From Magnetospirillum sp. (GTDB lineage Bacteria > Pseudomonadota > Alphaproteobacteria > Rhodospirillales > Magnetospirillaceae), in contig JAIWOG010000005.1 of NCBI GenBank assembly GCA_020217035.1, positions 1-10,000 of the forward strand: a DNA stretch of 10,000 nt. Reading direction: 5' to 3'. The notes under the pieces are model-generated. The model was not told where the DNA came from. It saw nothing but the letters and a program-made list of their open reading frames with translations, and searched no databases. The position numbers and the translations under genes are program-made. Numbering within the stretch: position 1 is the first letter of the stretch; each line of letters starts with the position of its first letter. Of the stretch, positions 159 to 10,000 are shown piece after piece.

Positions 159-1136
159 TTAGGCCTCGATGCCGCGCTTCTTCAGGAACGGGCGCAGCAC
201 GCCGACGATGCCGGCCCGGAAGGCGAGCACGCAGATGACGAAGATGACGCCCTGGATGATGGTCACCCAAGATCCCAAGGTGGCGAAGTAGTTCTGGATG
301 GTCACCACCAGATAGGCGCCGGCGGTGGGGCCGAAAATGGTGCCGACGCCGCCCAGCAGGGTCATCAGCACCACCTCGCCGGATGCGTGCCAGTGCACGT
401 CGGTCAGCGACGCCAACTGGAACACCAGGCTTTTCACCGACCCGGCCGTGCCCGACAGCGCCGCCGAGATGATGAAGGCGATCAGCTTGTAGCGGTCCAC
501 CTGATAGCCCAGCGAGATGGCGCGGGGCTCGTTGTCGCGGATGGCCTTCAAAACCTGGCCGAAAGGCGAGTTCACCACCCTGTACAGGAAGAACAGCGCC
601 AAGGCGAAGACACCGAACACGAAGTAATACATGTTCAGGGTGTCGGACAGGTCGATCACGCCGAACAGATGGCCGCGCGGCACGCCCTGGATGCCGTCCT
701 CGCCGTGGGTGAACGGGGCCTGCAACGCCACGAAGTACATCAACTGGGCCAAGGCCAGGGTGATCATGGCGAAGTAGATGCCCTGGCGGCGGATGGCCAG
801 CCAGCCGACCACCGCACCCATGCCGGCGGCGCAGAAGGTGCCCAGAAGCACGGCGATTTCCGGGGTCAGCCCCCATTCCTTGGCGGCGTGGGCGGTGATA
901 TAGGCCGACCAGCCGAAGAACATGGCGTGCCCGAAGGACAGCAAGCCGACATAGCCCAACAGCAGGTTGAAGGCGGCGGCGAACAGGGCGAAGCACAACC
1001 CCTTCATCAGGAACACCGGATAGACGGCGAAGGGGGCGATCAGGCCCACGGCCAGCAGGATGCCGACGAAGATGGCCTGGCGCGACACGCCCTTGTTCGG
1101 ACCGGTTGCGGAAGACGTCACGGAATTGGTGGTCAT
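159..1136 (-). CDS. livM: Branched-chain amino acid-type ABC transporter permease, LivM family
   Basis: 325-residue inner-membrane permease of the hydrophobic amino acid uptake (HAAT) family; it pairs with LivH to form the channel. Visible signs are a short polar N-terminus, then many hydrophobic helices from about residue 21, and the LivM hallmark GYVGLLSFGHAMFFG at 61-75. The cytoplasmic coupling segment, about 192-215, contains FGQVLKAIRDNEPRAISLGY and would contact the ATPases LivG/LivF. The length is normal for the family. The start ATG (1134-1136) lies 4 nt after the livH stop and is preceded by AAGGGAG, so the two permeases are very probably translated together. It ends GIEA just before the universal stress gene. 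The transported substrate cannot be read from this subunit; branched-chain amino acids, amides, urea and aromatic acids are all known for the family. Confidence 0.93.
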   Translation of the reverse strand: MTTNSVTSSATGPNKGVSRQAIFVGILLAVGLIAPFAVYPVFLMKGLCFALFAAAFNLLLGYVGLLSFGHAMFFGWSAYITAHAAKEWGLTPEIAVLLGTFCAAGMGAVVGWLAIRRQGIYFAMITLALAQLMYFVALQAPFTHGEDGIQGVPRGHLFGVIDLSDTLNMYYFVFGVFALALFFLYRVVNSPFGQVLKAIRDNEPRAISLGYQVDRYKLIAFIISAALSGTAGSVKSLVFQLASLTDVHWHASGEVVLMTLLGGVGTIFGPTAGAYLVVTIQNYFATLGSWVTIIQGVIFVICVLAFRAGIVGVLRPFLKKRGIEA

Positions 1137-1140
1137 GGGT

Positions 1141-2028
1141 TCAGGCTCCCTTGCCGAACAGGCCGGCGGGCTTGATCAGCAGCACCACGACCATGACCAT
1201 GAAGATCACGGTGGAAGCCGCTTCCGGATAGATCACCTTGGTCAGGCCCTCCAACAGGCCCAGCATGAAGCCGGTGACGATGGAGCCCATGATCGAGCCC
1301 ATGCCGCCGATCACCACCACGGCGAACACCACGATGATCAGGTTCGATCCCATCAGCGGGTTGACCGAATAGATGGGGGCGGCCAGCACGCCGGCGAAAG
1401 CGGCCAAGGCGACGCCGAAACCATAGGTCAAGGTGATCATGATGGGGACGTTGATGCCCATGGCTTGCACCAGGGCCGGATTCTCGGTGGCGGCACGCAA
1501 ATACGCGCCCAGCTTGGTCTTCTCGATCAACAGCCAGGTGCCGACACACAGCACCAGCGAGGCGATCACCACCCAGGCGCGATAGATCGGCAGGTACATG
1601 AAGCCCAGGTTCCAGCCGCCGGCCAGTTCCTTGGGCACCGCGTAGGGGATGCCGGAAATGCCGTAAAGTTGGCGGAAGATGCCTTCGATGATCAGCGCCA
1701 GGCCGAAGGTCAACAGCAGGCCGTACAGGTGGTCCAGCTTGTAGAGACGCGACAGCATGGTGCGTTCCAGCACGATGCCGATTGCGGCCACCACCAGCGG
1801 TGCCAGAGCCAGGGCCACCCAGTAATTGGCGCCCATGTAGGTGAGCCCCAGCCAGGCGACGAAGGCGCCCATCATGTACTGGGCCCCGTGCGAGAAGTTG
1901 ATGATGTTCAAGAGGCCGAAGATCAACGCCAGGCCCAGACTGAGCACGGCGTAGAAGGCGCCGTTGATCAGCCCCAGCAACAACTGGCCGAAAAGGGCGG
2001 CCGTGGGAATGCCGAACAAGGTCATCAT
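1141..2028 (-). CDS. livH: Branched-chain amino acid-type ABC transporter permease, LivH family
   Basis: 295-residue integral membrane permease, the partner of LivM in a HAAT-type importer. The N-terminal block LLLGLINGAFYAVLSLGLAL followed by IFGLLNIINFSHGAQYMMGAF (about 17-55) is the standard LivH signature. The coupling loop near 173-195 (LGAYLRAATENPALVQAMGI) is the segment expected to dock on the ATPase dimer. Roughly eight hydrophobic stretches are visible and the length is typical. There are two adjacent ATGs (2026-2028 and 2023-2025), so the start is ambiguous by one codon. The ribosome site is weak (AAAGAGAC). The gene is separated from livK by an 84-nt gap holding a strong hairpin, so it is probably expressed below livK. 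Confidence 0.93.
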   Translation of the reverse strand: MMTLFGIPTAALFGQLLLGLINGAFYAVLSLGLALIFGLLNIINFSHGAQYMMGAFVAWLGLTYMGANYWVALALAPLVVAAIGIVLERTMLSRLYKLDHLYGLLLTFGLALIIEGIFRQLYGISGIPYAVPKELAGGWNLGFMYLPIYRAWVVIASLVLCVGTWLLIEKTKLGAYLRAATENPALVQAMGINVPIMITLTYGFGVALAAFAGVLAAPIYSVNPLMGSNLIIVVFAVVVIGGMGSIMGSIVTGFMLGLLEGLTKVIYPEAASTVIFMVMVVVLLIKPAGLFGKGA

Positions 2029-2069
2029 GTGGCTAGGTCTCTTTCGTGACTAAAGTGCCGGTGGCGGAA

Positions 2070-2097
2070 GGAAGGGCCGCCGGGCGGCGGCCCTTCC
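2070..2097 (-). terminator. Strong intercistronic hairpin between livK and livH (attenuator or mRNA stabiliser)
   Basis: A perfect 12-bp inverted repeat, GGAAGGGCCGCC / GGCGGCCCTTCC, encloses a 4-nt loop, 15 nt downstream of the livK stop. No run of T follows on the minus strand (the next bases are TTCCGCCACC), so it is unlikely to be a full intrinsic terminator. Hairpins at this point in binding-protein transporter operons are known to protect the upstream mRNA or cause partial termination, giving an excess of the binding protein over the permeases. Assigning that role here is inference. Confidence 0.7.
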
Positions 2098-2112
2098 GAT
2101 CGCATGCCGGTC

Positions 2113-3330
2113 TTACTTCTTGACCAGATCGCACTTGCTGTCGGCCAGCGGCTGATACGCGTCGTCGCCGGGGATGGTGCGCACGATGTTGTAATAGTCC
2201 CAAGCACCCTTGGAATCAGCGGGCTTCTTCACCTGGGCCAGGTACATGTCGTGGACCATGCGGCCGTCGGCGCGAATCTTGCCGTTGATGGCGAAGCCCG
2301 AAACGTCCTTGATCGGCAAAGCGCGCATCTGGTCGGCGACCTTCATGCCATCGTCGGTCTTGGCGGCGGCCAGGGCCTTCAGGTAGTGCATGACCGACGA
2401 ATAGGTGCCGGCATGGACCATCGAGGGCATCTTGCCGTCCATCTTGGCCGACCAACGCTTGGACCAGGCGCGGGTTTCGTCGTCACGGTTCCAGTAATAG
2501 CCGGTGGTCATCATCATGCCTTGGGCGGTTTCCAGGCCCAGCGAGTGGACGTCGGTGATGAACACCAGCATGCCGGCCAGCGACTGGCCGCCCTGGGTGA
2601 TGCCGAATTCCTTGGCTTGCTTGATGGCGTTGATGGTGTCGGCGCCGGCATTGGCCAGACCGATGATCTGGGCGCCCGAAGCCTGGGCCTGCAGCAGGAA
2701 GGACGAGAAGTCCGAGTTGGGGAACGGATGGCGCACCGCACCCTTGATCTCGCCGCCATTGGCCTTGACCACACGCTCGGTCTGGGCCTGCAAATCGTGG
2801 CCGAAGGCGTAGTCGGCGGTCAGGAAGTACCAGGACTTGCCGCCGTTCTTGACCACGGCGTTGGCGGTGCCGTTGGCGAGCGCGGCGGTGTCGTAGGTCC
2901 AGTGGAAGCCGGTGGGCGAGCACTTGGCGTTGGTCAGCGCGGTGGAGGCGGCACCCGACACCAGGTCGATCTTGCCCTTTTCCTTGGACACTTCGCGCAC
3001 GGCGATGGCGGCGGCGGTGGTCACCAGCTCGGCGATGGCGTCGACCTGTTCGGCGTCATACCACTTGCGGGCGATGGAGGACGCGATGTCGGCCTTGTTC
3101 TGGTGGTCGGCCGAGACGATTTCCACCGGCACGCCGTTGACCTTGCCGCCGAAATCTTCCACGGCCATTTGCGCGGCGACGATGGCGCCCTTGCCGGCCA
3201 GGTCCGAATAGGTGCCCGACAGATCGGTCAGCACGCCGATCTTGATCTTGCTGTCGGAATACTGGGCTTGGGCCTGGGCCGCGGTCAAAGCGGTCAGGGC
3301 GACGGCGCCGATCAAAGCTTTCTTCAACAT
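2113..3330 (-). CDS. livK: Periplasmic substrate-binding protein of a HAAT-family ABC transporter (LivK-like)
   Basis: 405-residue secreted receptor that would deliver substrate to LivHM. It has a clear Sec signal peptide: MLKKALIGAVALTALTAAQAQA, with signal peptidase I cleavage likely after an AQA at residue 20 or 22. The mature protein begins with the Peripla_BP_6 strand KIKIGVLTDLSGTYSDLAGKG; GGKSWYFLTADYAFGHDLQ is the typical hinge/second-lobe segment. Two mature cysteines (in NAKCSPTG and in DSKCDLVKK at the C-terminus) could form a disulfide. The start has an excellent GGGAGGA site. The length and the ADYAFG segment resemble subfamily members often annotated generically as branched-chain amino acid receptors, some of which bind aromatic acids or amides. 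The true ligand cannot be assigned from sequence reading alone. Confidence 0.9.
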   Translation of the reverse strand: MLKKALIGAVALTALTAAQAQAQYSDSKIKIGVLTDLSGTYSDLAGKGAIVAAQMAVEDFGGKVNGVPVEIVSADHQNKADIASSIARKWYDAEQVDAIAELVTTAAAIAVREVSKEKGKIDLVSGAASTALTNAKCSPTGFHWTYDTAALANGTANAVVKNGGKSWYFLTADYAFGHDLQAQTERVVKANGGEIKGAVRHPFPNSDFSSFLLQAQASGAQIIGLANAGADTINAIKQAKEFGITQGGQSLAGMLVFITDVHSLGLETAQGMMMTTGYYWNRDDETRAWSKRWSAKMDGKMPSMVHAGTYSSVMHYLKALAAAKTDDGMKVADQMRALPIKDVSGFAINGKIRADGRMVHDMYLAQVKKPADSKGAWDYYNIVRTIPGDDAYQPLADSKCDLVKK

Positions 3331-3382
3331 AGAATGTCCTCCCGTTGGATTTATTGGCAGACGGTTTTCTTGGTAAAGGCGG

Positions 3383-4096
3383 TCAAACGCCCAGATACCC
3401 CTTGAGCTTCGCCATGTTGCTGGTCAGCTCGGCGTTGGGGATCATGTCGATGACATGGCCGTGTTCGACCACGTAATGGCGGTCGGCGACGGTGGCGGCG
3501 AAGTGGAAGTTCTGTTCCACCAGCAAGATGGTGAAGCCCCGTTCCTTGAGCTTCCTGATGATGTCGCCGATGTGCTGGACGATGACCGGGGCCAGGCCCT
3601 CGGTGGGTTCGTCCAGCAACAGCATGGTGGCGCCGGTGCGCAGGATTCGGGCGATGGCCAGCATCTGCTGTTCGCCGCCCGACAGCTTGGTGCCCTGGCT
3701 GCCGCCGCGTTCCAGCAGGCGCGGAAACAGGTCGTAGACCTCGGCCAGCGGCAGGCCGCCAGGCTTGACGATGGGCGGCAGCACCATGTTTTCCTTGACG
3801 GTCAAGGACGAGAAGATGCCGCGTTCCTCGGGACACAACGCCACGCCAAGCCGCGCGATCTTGTTGGACGACAGGTTGATGGTCTCGACCCCTTCGAAGG
3901 TAATCGAGCCCTTGCGCTTGCCCACCATACCCATGACCGACTTCATGGTGGTGGTCTTGCCGGCGCCGTTGCGGCCCAGCAGGGTGACGACCTCGCCCTT
4001 GTGAACCTCGAAGTTCATGCCGTGCAGGATGTGGGACTCGCCGTACCAGGCCTCGAGTCCGTCGACCTTCAGCAAGGCGCTGGATTCGTTACGCAT
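3383..4096 (-). CDS. livF: ABC transporter ATP-binding protein, LivF family
   Basis: 237-residue cytoplasmic ATPase that energises the LivHM channel as a heterodimer with LivG. All nucleotide-binding motifs are visible: Walker A GRNGAGKT (41-48), signature LSGGEQQ (138-144) and Walker B MLLLDEP (158-164). The switch position reads LLVEQN, with Gln (195) where LivG has His; this is the usual LivF pattern. The CPEERGIF segment (88-95) also matches the family. The length is standard. The ATG (4094-4096) lies inside the end of livG, giving an 8-nt overlap (ATGCGTAA), which points to translational coupling. livK follows after a 52-nt gap. Confidence 0.94.
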   Translation of the reverse strand: MRNESSALLKVDGLEAWYGESHILHGMNFEVHKGEVVTLLGRNGAGKTTTMKSVMGMVGKRKGSITFEGVETINLSSNKIARLGVALCPEERGIFSSLTVKENMVLPPIVKPGGLPLAEVYDLFPRLLERGGSQGTKLSGGEQQMLAIARILRTGATMLLLDEPTEGLAPVIVQHIGDIIRKLKERGFTILLVEQNFHFAATVADRHYVVEHGHVIDMIPNAELTSNMAKLKGYLGV

Positions 4097-4853
4097 GGCT
4101 GCCCACTCCGTGTCCCATGTAAGCCTCGATCACTTCCGGATTTTGCGAGATTTCGCTGTACGGGCCTTCGGCCAGAACCTTGCCCAACTTCAACACCGTG
4201 ATGGTGTCCGACAAATCGGCGACCACCGACAGGTTGTGCTCGACCATCAGGATGGTGCGGTCCTTGGAGACGCGGCGGATCAACTCGGCGGTGCGGGCCA
4301 CGTCCTCGGTGCCCATGCCGGCCATGGGCTCGTCCAGCAACAGCATTTCCGGTTCCAGCGCCAAGGTGGTGGCGATCTCCAGGGCGCGTTTGCGGCCATA
4401 GGACAATTCGCCGGCGGGGATGTCGCGATATTCCAGCACGCCCACATCTTCCAGCAATTGCTCGGCGCGGTCGTTCAACTCGGCCAGGCTGGTGTCCGAC
4501 TTCCAGAAATGGAACGAGGTGCCCAATTTCCGCTGCAACGCCACGCGGACGTTTTCCAGGGCGGTCAGGTGACCGAACACCGCCGAGATCTGGAAGCTGC
4601 GCACCATGCCAAGCTGGGCGATGTCGGCGGGCGCCGTGTTGGTGATGTCACGACCGTTCAGCAAGATGGTGCCGCGAGACAGCGGCAGGAACTTGGTGAT
4701 CAGGTTGAAGCAGGTGGTCTTGCCGGCGCCGTTGGGGCCGATCAGCGCATGGATGGTATGGCGCTTGACCTTCAGGTTGACGTCGGAAACGGCGACGAAT
4801 CCCTTGAATTCCTTGGTCAGGTTCTTTGTCTCGACGATGTAATCGTCAGCCAT
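4089..4853 (-). CDS. livG: ABC transporter ATP-binding protein, LivG family
   Basis: 254-residue ATPase and first gene of the liv operon. Motifs: Walker A GPNGAGKT (39-46), Q-loop Gln near 88 (RSFQIS), signature in the LivG-style form LSYGRKR (150-156), Walker B MLLLDEP (170-176) and switch His in MVEHN (206). The C-terminal tail GKVLAEGPYSEISQNPEVIEAYMG is characteristic of LivG. The ATG (4851-4853) is preceded by GGGAGG at good spacing. The gene order G-F-K-H-M, with the ATPases first, differs from the enterobacterial K-H-M-G-F order. The operon diverges from the heme-copper gene pair across a 370-nt intergenic region. Confidence 0.95.
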   Translation of the reverse strand: MADDYIVETKNLTKEFKGFVAVSDVNLKVKRHTIHALIGPNGAGKTTCFNLITKFLPLSRGTILLNGRDITNTAPADIAQLGMVRSFQISAVFGHLTALENVRVALQRKLGTSFHFWKSDTSLAELNDRAEQLLEDVGVLEYRDIPAGELSYGRKRALEIATTLALEPEMLLLDEPMAGMGTEDVARTAELIRRVSKDRTILMVEHNLSVVADLSDTITVLKLGKVLAEGPYSEISQNPEVIEAYMGHGVGSHA

Positions 4854-5223: not shown

Positions 5224-6498
5224 TTGTCCGCCAAGTCCATGCACGTGCAAGAAAATCACTTCCGCATGTTGGAATTGCGGCTTTGGTTGCTGTTGGCGGT
5301 CGCTGCCCTGGCGGTGGCCGGGGGATTGGCCTTGGGTCTGGCCTTGGCGCGGACCCCCGGCATCCAGGATGTCCTGCCCTCGGGGCCGGCCTTCTTCCAC
5401 AAGGCGCTGGTCACCCATGTGGTGTTTTCTTTCCAGGTCTGGCTGCTGACCATGTTGGCGGCTCTGGCGGCCACCGGCGCCGCGCATCCTGGCTCCGGAT
5501 TGCTGGGTCTCGGCTTGGCCGCTATCGGCGTGGCGCTGATGCTGGCGGTGACCCTGGCCGGTTGGGGCGAGGCGTCGTTGAACAATTACGTGCCGGTCCT
5601 GGATCATCCGCTTTATTTCGTCGGCCTGGGGCTGGTGGGGGCCGGGGTGGCGGCGGCGCTGTGGCGGCCGGGCACCGGGCTGGCGGCCGTCGGCTGGTGT
5701 TATGGCGTGGCGCTGGCGTGTTTCGCCGTGGCCGTTTGGCGGTTGCCGGCCGAGTTGGATCCGGCCTTCCGCCTGGAACGGCTGTTCTGGGGCGGCGGCC
5801 ATGTGCTGCAATTCGTCAACACGGGCCTGGTGATGGCGGCTTGGCAAATCCTGGCCGGACATCGGCCGACACTTTTGTCGCGCTTGGCCTTTGGCCTGCT
5901 GGCTTTGGGCGCCAGCGCGGCGCTGGTGGTCGAAATCCGCTTCGACCCGCAGGGGCTGGCCTGGCGCCAGGCTTACACCGACCTTCTTTGGTACATGCTG
6001 CCGCTGCCGCCGGTGCTGCTGGCCGTCGACGTGCTGGCCGGGGCTTGGCGCCGGCTGGACTGGCATTCGCTGGCCGGCTGGGCCTTGCTGGCCTCGTGGC
6101 TGGTCTTCGCCCTGGGCGGCGGCGCTGGCTTCGCCCTGGGGGCGGGCGACACCCGCACGCCGTCGCATTACCACGCGATGATCGGCGGCGTGAACGTCGC
6201 CTTGATGGGGATGGTCTTGTGCGTGTTGCTGCCGCGTTTGCAACGTCCCGTCGCCGCGTCGCGCTTGCCGCGCTGGCAAATCGGGCTTTATGGCGGCGGC
6301 CAATTGCTGCACGCCTTGGGCTTCTATCTGGCCGGAATGGCGGGCGTCGCCCGCAAGACCGCCGGTGCCGAACAAGGGCTGGACAGCGCCTTCAAGCTGG
6401 TGTCCATGGGGGTGGTGGGGCTGGGCGCCGCCGTGGCGGTGCTGGGGGGAATCCTCTTCGTCGGCCAGGTGCTGGCCCGGCTGGTGCGCCATGATTAG
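5224..6498 (+). CDS. Heme-copper oxidase superfamily subunit I, divergent (probable non-canonical nitric oxide reductase)
   Basis: About 424 residues with 12 apparent transmembrane helices, the heme-copper catalytic core. Numbering from the TTG start: H65 (VTHVVFSFQVW, helix 2) and H317 are the expected low-spin heme ligands. H315 in SHYHAMIGG is the high-spin heme ligand, matching the HxH of helix 10. H193 in WGGGHVLQF (helix 6) is the only clear CuB/FeB histidine. Where oxygen reductases have HPEVY, this has HVLQF, so the cross-linked Tyr is absent. Aligning by eye to the TRAY...PTGVKV block of cytochrome oxidases places E237-I238 where the helix-7 His-His pair belongs. The NNYVPVLDHPLYF motif (120-132) also recalls oxidase/NOR relatives. 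It overlaps the CuA gene by 8 nt. The lost Tyr and nearby nirS favour NO reduction, but the substrate is inferred. In-frame alternative starts are GTG 5128, ATG 5209 and ATG 5239. Confidence 0.8.
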   Translation: MSAKSMHVQENHFRMLELRLWLLLAVAALAVAGGLALGLALARTPGIQDVLPSGPAFFHKALVTHVVFSFQVWLLTMLAALAATGAAHPGSGLLGLGLAAIGVALMLAVTLAGWGEASLNNYVPVLDHPLYFVGLGLVGAGVAAALWRPGTGLAAVGWCYGVALACFAVAVWRLPAELDPAFRLERLFWGGGHVLQFVNTGLVMAAWQILAGHRPTLLSRLAFGLLALGASAALVVEIRFDPQGLAWRQAYTDLLWYMLPLPPVLLAVDVLAGAWRRLDWHSLAGWALLASWLVFALGGGAGFALGAGDTRTPSHYHAMIGGVNVALMGMVLCVLLPRLQRPVAASRLPRWQIGLYGGGQLLHALGFYLAGMAGVARKTAGAEQGLDSAFKLVSMGVVGLGAAVAVLGGILFVGQVLARLVRHD

Positions 6499-6913
6499 GG
6501 TGGTTATGGCCGGCTTGGCGTTCCTGGCCCTGGCGGCGTGGTGGCCGGGATGGCGCGGCGGCGAGCAGCCGTTGGGGCAAGCGGTGGACCCGGCAGCCTT
6601 CGTCGCCGAAACCGAGGCTTTCGCCACCCGCCATCAAGCGGGACAGACGGTGCGGCCACCGCCCGGTGCGGTCCCCCTCTTGGCCCGTCGCTTCGAATTC
6701 TGGCCGCCCCTTGCGCTTGATCCGGGCGAAAGCTATCGCTTGCGCCTGATGGCCCAGGACAGCGTGCATTCGGTGGCGGTGAACGGCCGCGAAATGCTGC
6801 TGGTGCCGGGCCATGTCCAGGACATCGACGTGGCCCCCGGCGACCAGTTGGAACTGCGTTGCAACGAATATTGCGGGCTGGGCCACAACCGCATGCGGCT
6901 GAAACTCTACTGA
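6491..6913 (+). CDS. CuA-containing subunit II-like membrane-anchored cupredoxin
   Basis: 140 residues: one N-terminal membrane anchor (about 4-20), a linker, then a periplasmic cupredoxin domain. The CuA ligands are complete: H93 in DSVHSV, then C124, E126 (backbone ligand position), C128, H132 and M135 in CNEYCGLGHNRM. This matches the CxExCGxxHxxM pattern of cytochrome c oxidase subunit II. It is shorter than a normal subunit II because it lacks the two-helix hairpin, and it ends five residues after the last ligand. It would take electrons from a periplasmic cytochrome c or cupredoxin and pass them to the heme-copper subunit, whose gene it overlaps by 8 nt (ATGATTAG). Its stop lies inside the 3' end of the convergent regulator gene. 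The CuA assignment is firm; the enzyme's substrate is not. Confidence 0.88.
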   Translation: MIRVVMAGLAFLALAAWWPGWRGGEQPLGQAVDPAAFVAETEAFATRHQAGQTVRPPPGAVPLLARRFEFWPPLALDPGESYRLRLMAQDSVHSVAVNGREMLLVPGHVQDIDVAPGDQLELRCNEYCGLGHNRMRLKLY

Positions 6914-7671
6914 GCCGCCGCGCAGCGTTGGCGCAATGATGCGACGTCGTCGATGCGCACCGAATTGCCTTCGGTGCTGACCCCCATGTCGCGCAGCCGC
7001 GCCAGCACGCGGGACAGGCTTTCGCGCCGGATGCCGACCCGGCTGGCCAGGATTTCCTTGTTGAAGGGCAGGGACACCACAGCCTGGCCGGCATGGGCGT
7101 CGGTCAGCGCCAGCAGGAACTCGGCCACCCGTTGCCAGGGCGGAATCTGCTTCAGATGGTGGATTTCCGACGCCAAGCGCTGGTGCCAGCGGCACATGCC
7201 GGCCAGCATGCGGTATCCCACCACCGGGTCCGACTTCAAGGTGGCGACGAAGGCGCGGCGGCCGACGCGGATCAGGGTGGCGTCCTCGATCACCTCGGCG
7301 TGCAGCGGGAAGACGCTGTCGGACAGCATGGCGGCCTCGCCGAAGGACGACACCGGGGTGAACACCTCGACGATGCTTTCCCGTCCGTCAGGGGTCAGCG
7401 CCGACAGCTTCACCTGGCCGTCCAGCACGATGTAGAAGCAATCGGCCGGCGCGCCTGCGGAAAACAGCAAGGATCGCCGTTCCAAGGCCAAGGCGGTGGA
7501 ATCGGCCATCAGCCGTTCCAGCACGTCGTGATCCAATCCGCTGAACAACGGCAGCGCCATCACCTGTTTGGCCAGGGCCGGGCCGGCGGCGCGGTGGCGC
7601 GGCAACTGGGCTTGCGCCTTGGAACATTCGGGTTTGGGCACCAGGCACAGAATGCGGCAGGGGCAGGTCAT
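6907..7671 (-). CDS. Crp/Fnr-family transcriptional regulator with a Cys-rich N-terminus
   Basis: 254 residues. An N-terminal extension (1-35) carries C3, C5, C9 and C16; then come a cyclic-nucleotide-binding-like beta-roll (about 40-140, with FSAGAPADCFYIVLDGQVKL), a long dimerisation helix (about 148-180) and a C-terminal winged helix. The recognition helix IRRESLSRVLARL contains E217, S220 and R221, matching the E-x-x-S-R contacts by which FNR reads TTGAT half-sites. The four clustered Cys plus C78 could bind an Fe-S cluster, but the spacing (CxCx3Cx6C) is not that of E. coli FNR. Dnr/NnrR proteins usually lack such cysteines. The start ATG overlaps the stop of the upstream regulator as ATGA and has GGAG at 7 nt. 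An in-frame open stretch upstream (to 8085) lies antisense-free but inside the other regulator and is not coding. It probably controls denitrification genes. Confidence 0.87.
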   Translation of the reverse strand: MTCPCRILCLVPKPECSKAQAQLPRHRAAGPALAKQVMALPLFSGLDHDVLERLMADSTALALERRSLLFSAGAPADCFYIVLDGQVKLSALTPDGRESIVEVFTPVSSFGEAAMLSDSVFPLHAEVIEDATLIRVGRRAFVATLKSDPVVGYRMLAGMCRWHQRLASEIHHLKQIPPWQRVAEFLLALTDAHAGQAVVSLPFNKEILASRVGIRRESLSRVLARLRDMGVSTEGNSVRIDDVASLRQRCAAAQ

Positions 7672-8378
7672 GGCGTTTCTCCGTCCCACGGCATGTCCAG
7701 GGCTTCCACCAGCGAACGCAGGTTTTCCAAATCGGCGATCAGCACCCGGTCGCCGCGGCCCGATTCGACACCGATGTCGCGCAGCTTGGCGAAGGCGCGG
7801 GACAAGGTGGCGGGTTCCATGCCCAAGCGGTCGGCCAGCAGGCGCTTCTCGAACGGCAGCTTGACCTCGATGGCGCCGTCCCGACGATCGGCGGCCAGGG
7901 CACACAAATAGCTGGCCAATCGTTCGGTGGTGGATTGCAGCTTCAGTTCGGTGATTTCCTTGACCAAGCCGTGCAGGCTGCCGGCCATTTCGGCGATCAT
8001 CGCCAGCATCAGGTCGAAATGGCTGTCCAGATAGGTGGTCAGCGCGTGGCCACGGATGGCGACGACACGGCCTTGTTGCACGCATTGCGCGGTGGCGGCG
8101 TGGGATGAGCCGGGGATCAGCGAATCAGCCCCCACCGCCATGCCGGCGGACAGATGGGCCAGCACTTCCGCTGGGCAGCCGGGGCGATGCACCGCCAGTT
8201 CCACTTGCCCGTTCATCAAGACGTACAGATGGGTGGCGTCGTCGCCTTGCGCGAACAGAACCTGGCCAGCCGCCATGGTCCGGCAGGGATCGGCGTCCAA
8301 AAGCCCGGTCAGGTCGGCTTCCGGCACCGTGGCGAAGACGGGATGTCGTCTTAGCGTGGCGATCGCTTCGGTTCGCAT
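7668..8378 (-). CDS. Crp/Fnr-family transcriptional regulator (Dnr/NnrR-like)
   Basis: 236 residues from the ATG at 8376-8378, chosen because GGGGGT lies just upstream and the beta-roll begins soon after; a longer in-frame start at 8462 would run into the nirS terminator region. The sensor domain (about 11-120) contains FAQGDDATHLYVLMNGQVEL; a dimer helix and a C-terminal winged helix follow. There is no N-terminal Cys cluster, so an FNR-type Fe-S cluster is unlikely. Heme-based NO sensing, as in Dnr, is possible. The recognition helix reads MEPATLSRAFAKL: Ser193 and Arg194 of the FNR contact triad are kept, but the base-contacting Glu position is Ala190. It is the first gene of a two-regulator operon and has an FNR-type box upstream, so auto- or cross-regulation is likely. 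Confidence 0.88.
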   Translation of the reverse strand: MRTEAIATLRRHPVFATVPEADLTGLLDADPCRTMAAGQVLFAQGDDATHLYVLMNGQVELAVHRPGCPAEVLAHLSAGMAVGADSLIPGSSHAATAQCVQQGRVVAIRGHALTTYLDSHFDLMLAMIAEMAGSLHGLVKEITELKLQSTTERLASYLCALAADRRDGAIEVKLPFEKRLLADRLGMEPATLSRAFAKLRDIGVESGRGDRVLIADLENLRSLVEALDMPWDGETP

Positions 8379-8444
8379 GTTGGCTACCCCCGTAACCGGA
8401 AACCCCCGATGACGGCACAGTGACTTTTCTGCGTGTCGGTGCCC

Positions 8445-8458
8445 TTGACTTTCGTCAG
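8445..8458 (-). promoter_or_regulatory. FNR/NNR-type box upstream of the regulator operon
   Basis: TTGACTTTCGTCAG (plus strand) matches TTGAC-N4-GTCAA at 9 of 10 defined positions. Its centre is about 73 nt upstream of the regulator ATG. If it acts at -41.5, transcription would start near 8410, giving a leader of about 32 nt. A matching -10 around 8417-8422 (CACTGT on the minus strand) is weak, as is common for activator-dependent promoters. The box sits only 5 bases from the T-run of the nirS terminator. Confidence 0.72.
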
Positions 8459-8463
8459 GCACG

Positions 8464-8555: not shown

Positions 8556-10000
<1,445 letters not shown>

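Follow-up and report, generated by a model that had tools for sequence, protein, structure and literature searches.

A conserved heme-copper oxidase-fold family without the CuB/FeB ligand set, encoded beside nirS in Magnetospirillum

In the A- and B-type oxygen reductases of the heme-copper oxidase (HCO) superfamily the catalytic Tyr near CuB lies in helix 6; the cbb3 enzymes carry theirs three residues after the helix-7 His-His pair, a placement also seen in the sequences handled here. Magnetospirilli are described as carrying a Tyr-less B-type enzyme, ‘ba3-a1’, together with SCO genes (PMC6431628), and ba3-a1 is reported to reduce NO and has been renamed eNOR (PMC8879329). Table A4 of PMC8756737 gives Gln, replacing Tyr, as the eNOR active-site residue, and from this Gln and the ba3-a1 papers we identified as eNOR a protein of 557-578 aa whose helix 6 carries GH[SA]SQQIN and whose helix 7 carries AHH. 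CtaM, a DUF420 protein, is reported to be needed for aa3 oxidase in S. aureus and B. subtilis (PMC4958251, PMC9145763, PMC13344008), and copper export has been proposed for the B. subtilis protein (PMC13344008). Here we compare with these systems an HCO-fold family that we did not find described in the open literature searched (NOR classes, DUF420/CtaB/COX operons, assembly factors, Magnetospirillum denitrification and CuB-less HCOs), where the class nNOR (Murali et al. 2024) appears by name only.

The window is a stretch of 10,000 nucleotides, bases 1-10000 of contig C219 in a 3.5 Mb draft Magnetospirillum genome. Positions 5224..6498 of its forward strand encode an HCO-fold subunit I, and this protein with its relatives is called the window family in all counts. 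The start codon may be ATG 5209, TTG 5224 or ATG 5239, a choice with no bearing on the residue findings; numbering is from TTG 5224. The AlphaFold model (pLDDT 92.6) has the 12-helix HCO fold, with a ba3 oxidase as best Foldseek match, and model and alignment both show the His ligands of a low-spin and a high-spin heme. The gene is under purifying selection, with dN/dS of about 0.12-0.21 against three relatives. Among the 120 matches listed, the 13 closest (73-95% identity) include Magnetospirillum proteins, one of them from M. gryphiswaldense MSR-1 and annotated as ‘putative Permease’.

Loci were taken from the best 80 of 473 relatives, picked by two motif patterns, and divergent members are under-sampled in this best-80 set. 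It supplied the neighbour counts (78 loci, since L056 and L070 have no called gene carrying the motif), the family alignment and tree (76 of 79 proteins, with L023, L037 and L064 left out at under 330 aa) and the genome co-occurrence counts (50 of the 80 loci); fractions of 75, 76, 78, 80 and 50 below refer to it. Gene content was read by tblastn for L119 and from open reading frames for L098. A second alignment, A2, has 91 rows, the window and 90 of the 120 matches listed of 437. Searched against PDB sequences, the A2 profile returned two unrelated matches (E 0.3-0.4), and kinship to solved structures is therefore seen by fold only.

The ligands of both hemes are kept. H65 in helix 2 (5416..5418), the low-spin heme ligand, is found in 75/75 rows with a residue at this position, and the helix-10 motif H315-Y316-H317 (6166..6174), with the high-spin and the low-spin heme ligand, is found in 76/76, as is H193 in helix 6 (5800..5802), the sole CuB-type His left. 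A first-pass annotation of this DNA had picked out the same open reading frame and these four His, all of which hold and are invariant in A2 (91/91). R377-K378 (6352..6357) stands at the RR pair of ba3 and eNOR in 76/76 rows and, by analogy with that pair, is presumably a heme propionate contact. One divergent member (L098, 8203-9567, genome G094) has NVVIPAHYH in place of DTRTPSHYH and a His at the 199 position.

The catalytic Tyr and the helix-7 ligands of the second-metal site are gone. As the first-pass annotation had read it, the HPEVY motif of oxidases is HVLQF in the window protein, and F197 occupies the Tyr position, where 74/76 rows have F/L/V/I and 2/76 have Tyr. Position 240 is also Phe in the window (Tyr in 13/76), and the catalytic Tyr of the A, B and C oxygen reductases is thus found at neither position. 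Q196, F197 and N199 (5809..5820) belong to an H-x-x-Q-x-x-N motif, with Q196 in 76/76 and N199 in 69/76 rows. The helix-7 His-His pair is absent from 76/76 aligned rows. Here the annotation was right about the loss and one residue out in the register: it had put E237-I238 in place of the pair, which aligns by hhalign and MAFFT with V236-E237 (5929..5934), the register also used with the tree and A2, so that E237 takes the place of the second CuB His. At this position 63/76 rows have Tyr, 6/76 have Glu and 7/76 have T/F/L/A, giving an O-donor (E or Y) in 69/76, and the Glu is specific to the branch with Magnetospirillum (12/91 in A2). The alternative metal site that the annotation proposed, of H193 and perhaps Q196 and E237, is not supported by this comparison. 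In A2, no conserved ligand replaces the His pair in the window's helices 6-8, leaving the CuB/FeB site of helix-6 His and helix-7 His-His incomplete, and Q196 and N199 already occur in eNOR alongside the full His set. E237 was rejected as a family-wide metal ligand since its position is mostly Tyr. H247, a His in 66/91 rows of A2, was also rejected, since the window has Trp there and the position is ten residues further along, in the loop between helices 7 and 8.

Profile comparison by hhalign gave E 3e-22 (25% identity) for eNOR, 2.7e-4 for aa3 and 0.12 for the NorB of the same genome. In a tree of the 76 proteins rooted on ba3, the window family is closest to eNOR. Of the 289 class genomes searched, true family members are present in four, and the weaker profile matches were 12 non-family frames, ten of which were fetched; all ten carry GH[SA]SQQIN. 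By profile (three families compared), by tree and by next-best genome matches, the window family thus appears to be the sister of eNOR, the alphaproteobacterial ba3-a1 of the B family, among the families compared. The basal nodes of the tree are weak (0.24-0.6), and we therefore make no claim on loss versus gain of CuA.

The window family and eNOR have in common the helix-6 motif H-x-x-Q-x-x-N, B-family kinship, a cupredoxin (CuA-type) subunit II and, at times, the same locus. In eNOR, unlike the window family, Gln replaces the Tyr and the helix-7 His-His (AHH) is complete, hence three CuB His; the window family has no pair and mostly F/L/V/I in place of the Gln (F197 in the window). The ba3-type oxygen reductase, the top Foldseek match for subunit I and among the best for subunit II, shares the heme ligands and CuA and differs in having the catalytic Tyr and the two further CuB His. 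The cNOR and qNOR enzymes share the HCO fold and an NO context, but the window family has a cupredoxin rather than a cytochrome c subunit; neither NorB kinship, nor three FeB His plus Glu, nor a heme c or fused quinol subunit was found, in a comparison with one NorB and, for qNOR, by fold only. For gNOR, and for sNOR and bNOR (CuANOR), Table A4 of PMC8756737 lists Asp and Asn, respectively, as the active-site residue without giving its position; residue 197 is Phe in the window. The profile and tree check that the first-pass annotation had suggested, run here against eNOR, aa3, the genome's own NorB and in the ba3-rooted tree, thus returned eNOR as nearest and an active site outside the definitions of both cNOR/qNOR and eNOR. 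Alignment by hhalign and MAFFT showed neither a helix-7 His-His pair nor a catalytic Tyr in the window protein, and the annotation's observation of these losses holds.

The 3′ end of the subunit I gene is overlapped by 8 bases by a subunit II gene (6491..6913, forward strand), which encodes 140 aa with one N-terminal helix and a CuA cupredoxin domain. Its match to TIGR02866 (E 8e-5) is below the cut-off of that model; its predicted structure (pLDDT 88) finds CuA domains, including ba3 subunit II, as best Foldseek matches at modest TM scores of 0.4-0.5. The CuA ligands H93, C124, E126, C128, H132 and M135 (6767..6895, numbered from ATG 6491), with the C-x-E-x-C spacing, are all present and are invariant in 24/24 family partners. 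In L059 and P0106 the CuA domain is fused to the family protein. The overlapping CuA gene and these fusions argue for electron input. A CuA motif lies downstream or fused in 32/78 loci of the best-80 set, one of them (L060) belonging to eNOR. No CuA motif was found within 1.5 kb in the other 46/78, four of which end within 160 bases, and a CuA route is therefore not general to the family. No CuA gene can be recognised downstream of the nirS-linked members L015 and L031; position 237 is Glu in L015 and Ala in L031.

Downstream in the window, on the reverse strand, are two Crp/Fnr-family regulators, at 6907..7671 (PF00027, PF13545) and 7668..8462 (PF13545, PF00027; the gene caller prefers a shorter start at 8378), and nirS for cytochrome cd1 nitrite reductase (8556..10000, PF02239 E 1e-149), which runs off the window. 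This gene order recurs in genome G475. Upstream and divergent from the HCO-like gene is a five-gene transporter of the branched-chain amino acid ABC type (159-4853, reverse strand; by Pfam two permeases, a binding protein and two ATPases), which also neighbours several related loci. No Fnr/Dnr/NnrR-type box was found upstream in the window at up to two mismatches, the sites found lying inside other genes; the relatives L002 and L003 have weak two-mismatch Fnr/Nnr-type sites upstream. In MSR-1, the fnr-family genes MSR1_08370 and MSR1_08380, with consecutive tags, are reported as up in anoxic magnetic cells (M 6.04 and 2.37; PMC9549626), and these may be the two regulators beside the HCO-like gene. 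The host genome also has a norC-norB pair. Elsewhere in it (L086, 1504-2784 of G000:C248), a membrane protein with below-cut-off NnrS and COX1 matches is encoded beside another Crp/Fnr regulator.

Across the best-80 set the commonest context of the family is linkage to DUF420 and CtaB, in many cases together with the aa3 operon and frequently without CuA. DUF420 (PF04238, E 2e-41 and 1e-40 in two examples) directly adjoins the family gene in 50/78 loci, and a CtaB-type prenyltransferase gene lies up to six genes away in 52/78. CoxB is found up to eight genes away in 28/78 and CtaA up to six genes away in 8/78; the divergent member L098, from the 1.9 Mb genome G094, is in our reading divergently placed with a CtaA-like gene. 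DUF420 and CtaB are genomic partners of the window family and not its relatives. In the window's genome they form a separate two-gene unit (L109, G000:C45, 6383-7672) beside unrelated genes, and in other Magnetospirillum genomes they likewise form a two-gene unit away from the family gene. Linkage to nirS up to eight genes away is seen in the window and in 5/78 loci (L001, L002, L004, L015 and L031), and an eNOR gene is present in the same locus in 11/80. In the eNOR loci (L008, 7879-9947, and its relatives) the HCO-like gene is directly preceded by genes for a cytochrome b - ferredoxin - FlpD fusion and for a protein of 167 aa that has no Pfam match.

The family and DUF420 also travel together between genomes. 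Of 150 genomes from the order, 97 have both, 5 the family only, 4 DUF420 only (one weak) and 44 neither (Fisher 1.6e-27, a value that ignores phylogeny). Profiles scored 5-11 first-look candidates per genome, which makes family absences soft. Three of the five family-only genomes were looked at, and all three keep the HCO-CtaB pair. In the class sample, DUF420 at E<=1e-30 occurs in 2/289 genomes, both family bearers; the exceptions are one non-bearer (G201) with a weaker DUF420 match over the cut-off and two divergent bearers (G048 and G094) without any. Among the 50 family-bearing genomes of the best-80 set, DUF420 is found in 48, Cox11 in 43, cNOR in 23 and eNOR in 16. Genes of cd1 type (E<=1e-50) are found in 30/50 against 20/289 class genomes, a contrast that is descriptive only and an enrichment that is partly phylogenetic, as the family-bearing genomes cluster within one order. 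Fourteen of the 50 have no nirS, cNOR or eNOR match at the thresholds used, and an NO context is thus not universal. In the 45 DUF420 proteins of the fetched loci, H9 is near-invariant (44/45), H37, H84 and H110 are found in 45/45, and several Tyr, Met and Trp are invariant, a sequence pattern compatible with heme or copper binding.

We tentatively read the window family as a redox-active enzyme from a conserved HCO branch that either is the sister of eNOR-like (B-family) NO reductases or arose from within them, and in which the CuB/FeB ligand set was lost; as a whole this falls somewhat short of an even chance in our estimate. The CuA partner and the linkage to nirS and eNOR favour an enzyme. 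On this reading the window's protein would be a CuB-less, eNOR-like two-heme protein, redox-active there, matured by CtaB and DUF420 and probably reactive towards NO or O2. Subunit I would keep two hemes, one low-spin on H65/H317 and one high-spin on H315, with a distal pocket of H193, Q196, N199 and the O-donor at 237 (Glu in the window, Tyr in most relatives) in lieu of a second metal. In the window, electrons may pass from a periplasmic donor to the CuA subunit, the low-spin heme and then the high-spin heme; redox activity is expected where CuA is present, with NO or O2/NO as likely substrate. The likeliest reaction would be one-electron chemistry at a single heme with NO, or with O2 and NO in the manner of a dioxygenase, by which the NO from NirS is consumed or buffered; fast two-metal respiration of 2NO to N2O would be left to norCB. 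CtaB would supply heme O/A, and DUF420 would act as a dedicated maturation partner.

The role of CtaM in aa3 maturation fits equally well a quite different function, in which the HCO-like protein, DUF420 and CtaB form a module for handling or inserting heme O/A into aa3 (and eNOR), the protein being a heme holding site without catalysis and its CuA-bearing members re-uses. The frequent DUF420, CtaB, CoxB and CtaA neighbours, the CtaA-like gene beside L098, the near-perfect co-distribution with DUF420 and the many members without CuA all point this way. A dedicated and intact CuA subunit, at times fused, has no obvious assembly role; moreover, 285/289 class genomes lack the family and 287/289 lack a strong DUF420 match (the search covered the family and DUF420), and in Magnetospirillum the family gene sits in a nirS locus with DUF420-CtaB elsewhere. 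We regard such a biogenesis factor as the main rival, possible though on the unlikely side. Signalling is a different matter: a gas or redox sensor, or an inert pseudo-enzyme, could act on neighbouring Crp/Fnr regulators, two of which adjoin in the window, and a different Crp-type gene (L077, 11493-12176) directly follows a Hyphomicrobium member. The window's Crp cluster is found in 6/80 loci, however, and most loci have no gene of it (once-seen neighbours are not all annotated and other regulators were possibly missed), which makes this very unlikely.

The first-pass annotation had inferred a non-canonical NO reductase or another NO/N-oxide enzyme. In its favour, this is no ordinary oxidase, the nearest relatives are B-family NO reductases of eNOR type and the locus contains nirS; a plain NO reductase fits poorly with the norC-norB pair already in the genome, the 14/50 genomes with no nirS, cNOR or eNOR match, and DUF420/CtaB as commonest context. 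A true binuclear NO reductase would need an unusual non-heme metal on H193, E/Y237 and Q196, and might correspond to the class named nNOR in print. A Glu at the non-heme site is a NorB theme, and the O-donor at 237 in most rows, the eNOR kinship and the nirS locus suit such an enzyme; against this, one His is left, T/F/L/A stands at 237 in some rows, and the common H247 is a loop residue replaced by Trp in the window. We consider it doubtful. An ordinary cbb3, aa3 or ba3 oxygen reductase, with the manual alignment at fault, agrees with the fold only: the His pair occurs in 0/76 rows, 74/76 have no Tyr at the catalytic position and the COX1 score is under its cut-off (22 vs 34.8 bits). The hhalign and MAFFT alignments refute this possibility, to which we assign next to no probability.

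Whichever function applies, we think it reasonably likely that an HCO family without a second metal is common in one alphaproteobacterial order, with both hemes kept, CuA in some lineages and a His/Gln/Asn/Tyr(Glu) pocket in the former place of CuB, in a module with DUF420 and CtaB, and that its role is that of an enzyme reacting with NO/O2 at a single heme or, alternatively, that of a holdase keeping heme for terminal oxidases. PF00115-type matches near nirS should be checked for the helix-7 His pair before they are counted as oxidases or NO reductases. If the association is true, DUF420/CtaM, whose role in oxidase maturation is unsettled, would gain a partner. The binuclear heme-metal centre is taken to define the superfamily, and a conserved family without second-metal ligands, but with a tight set of partners, purifying selection and both heme sites, would put the purpose of the second metal to the test.
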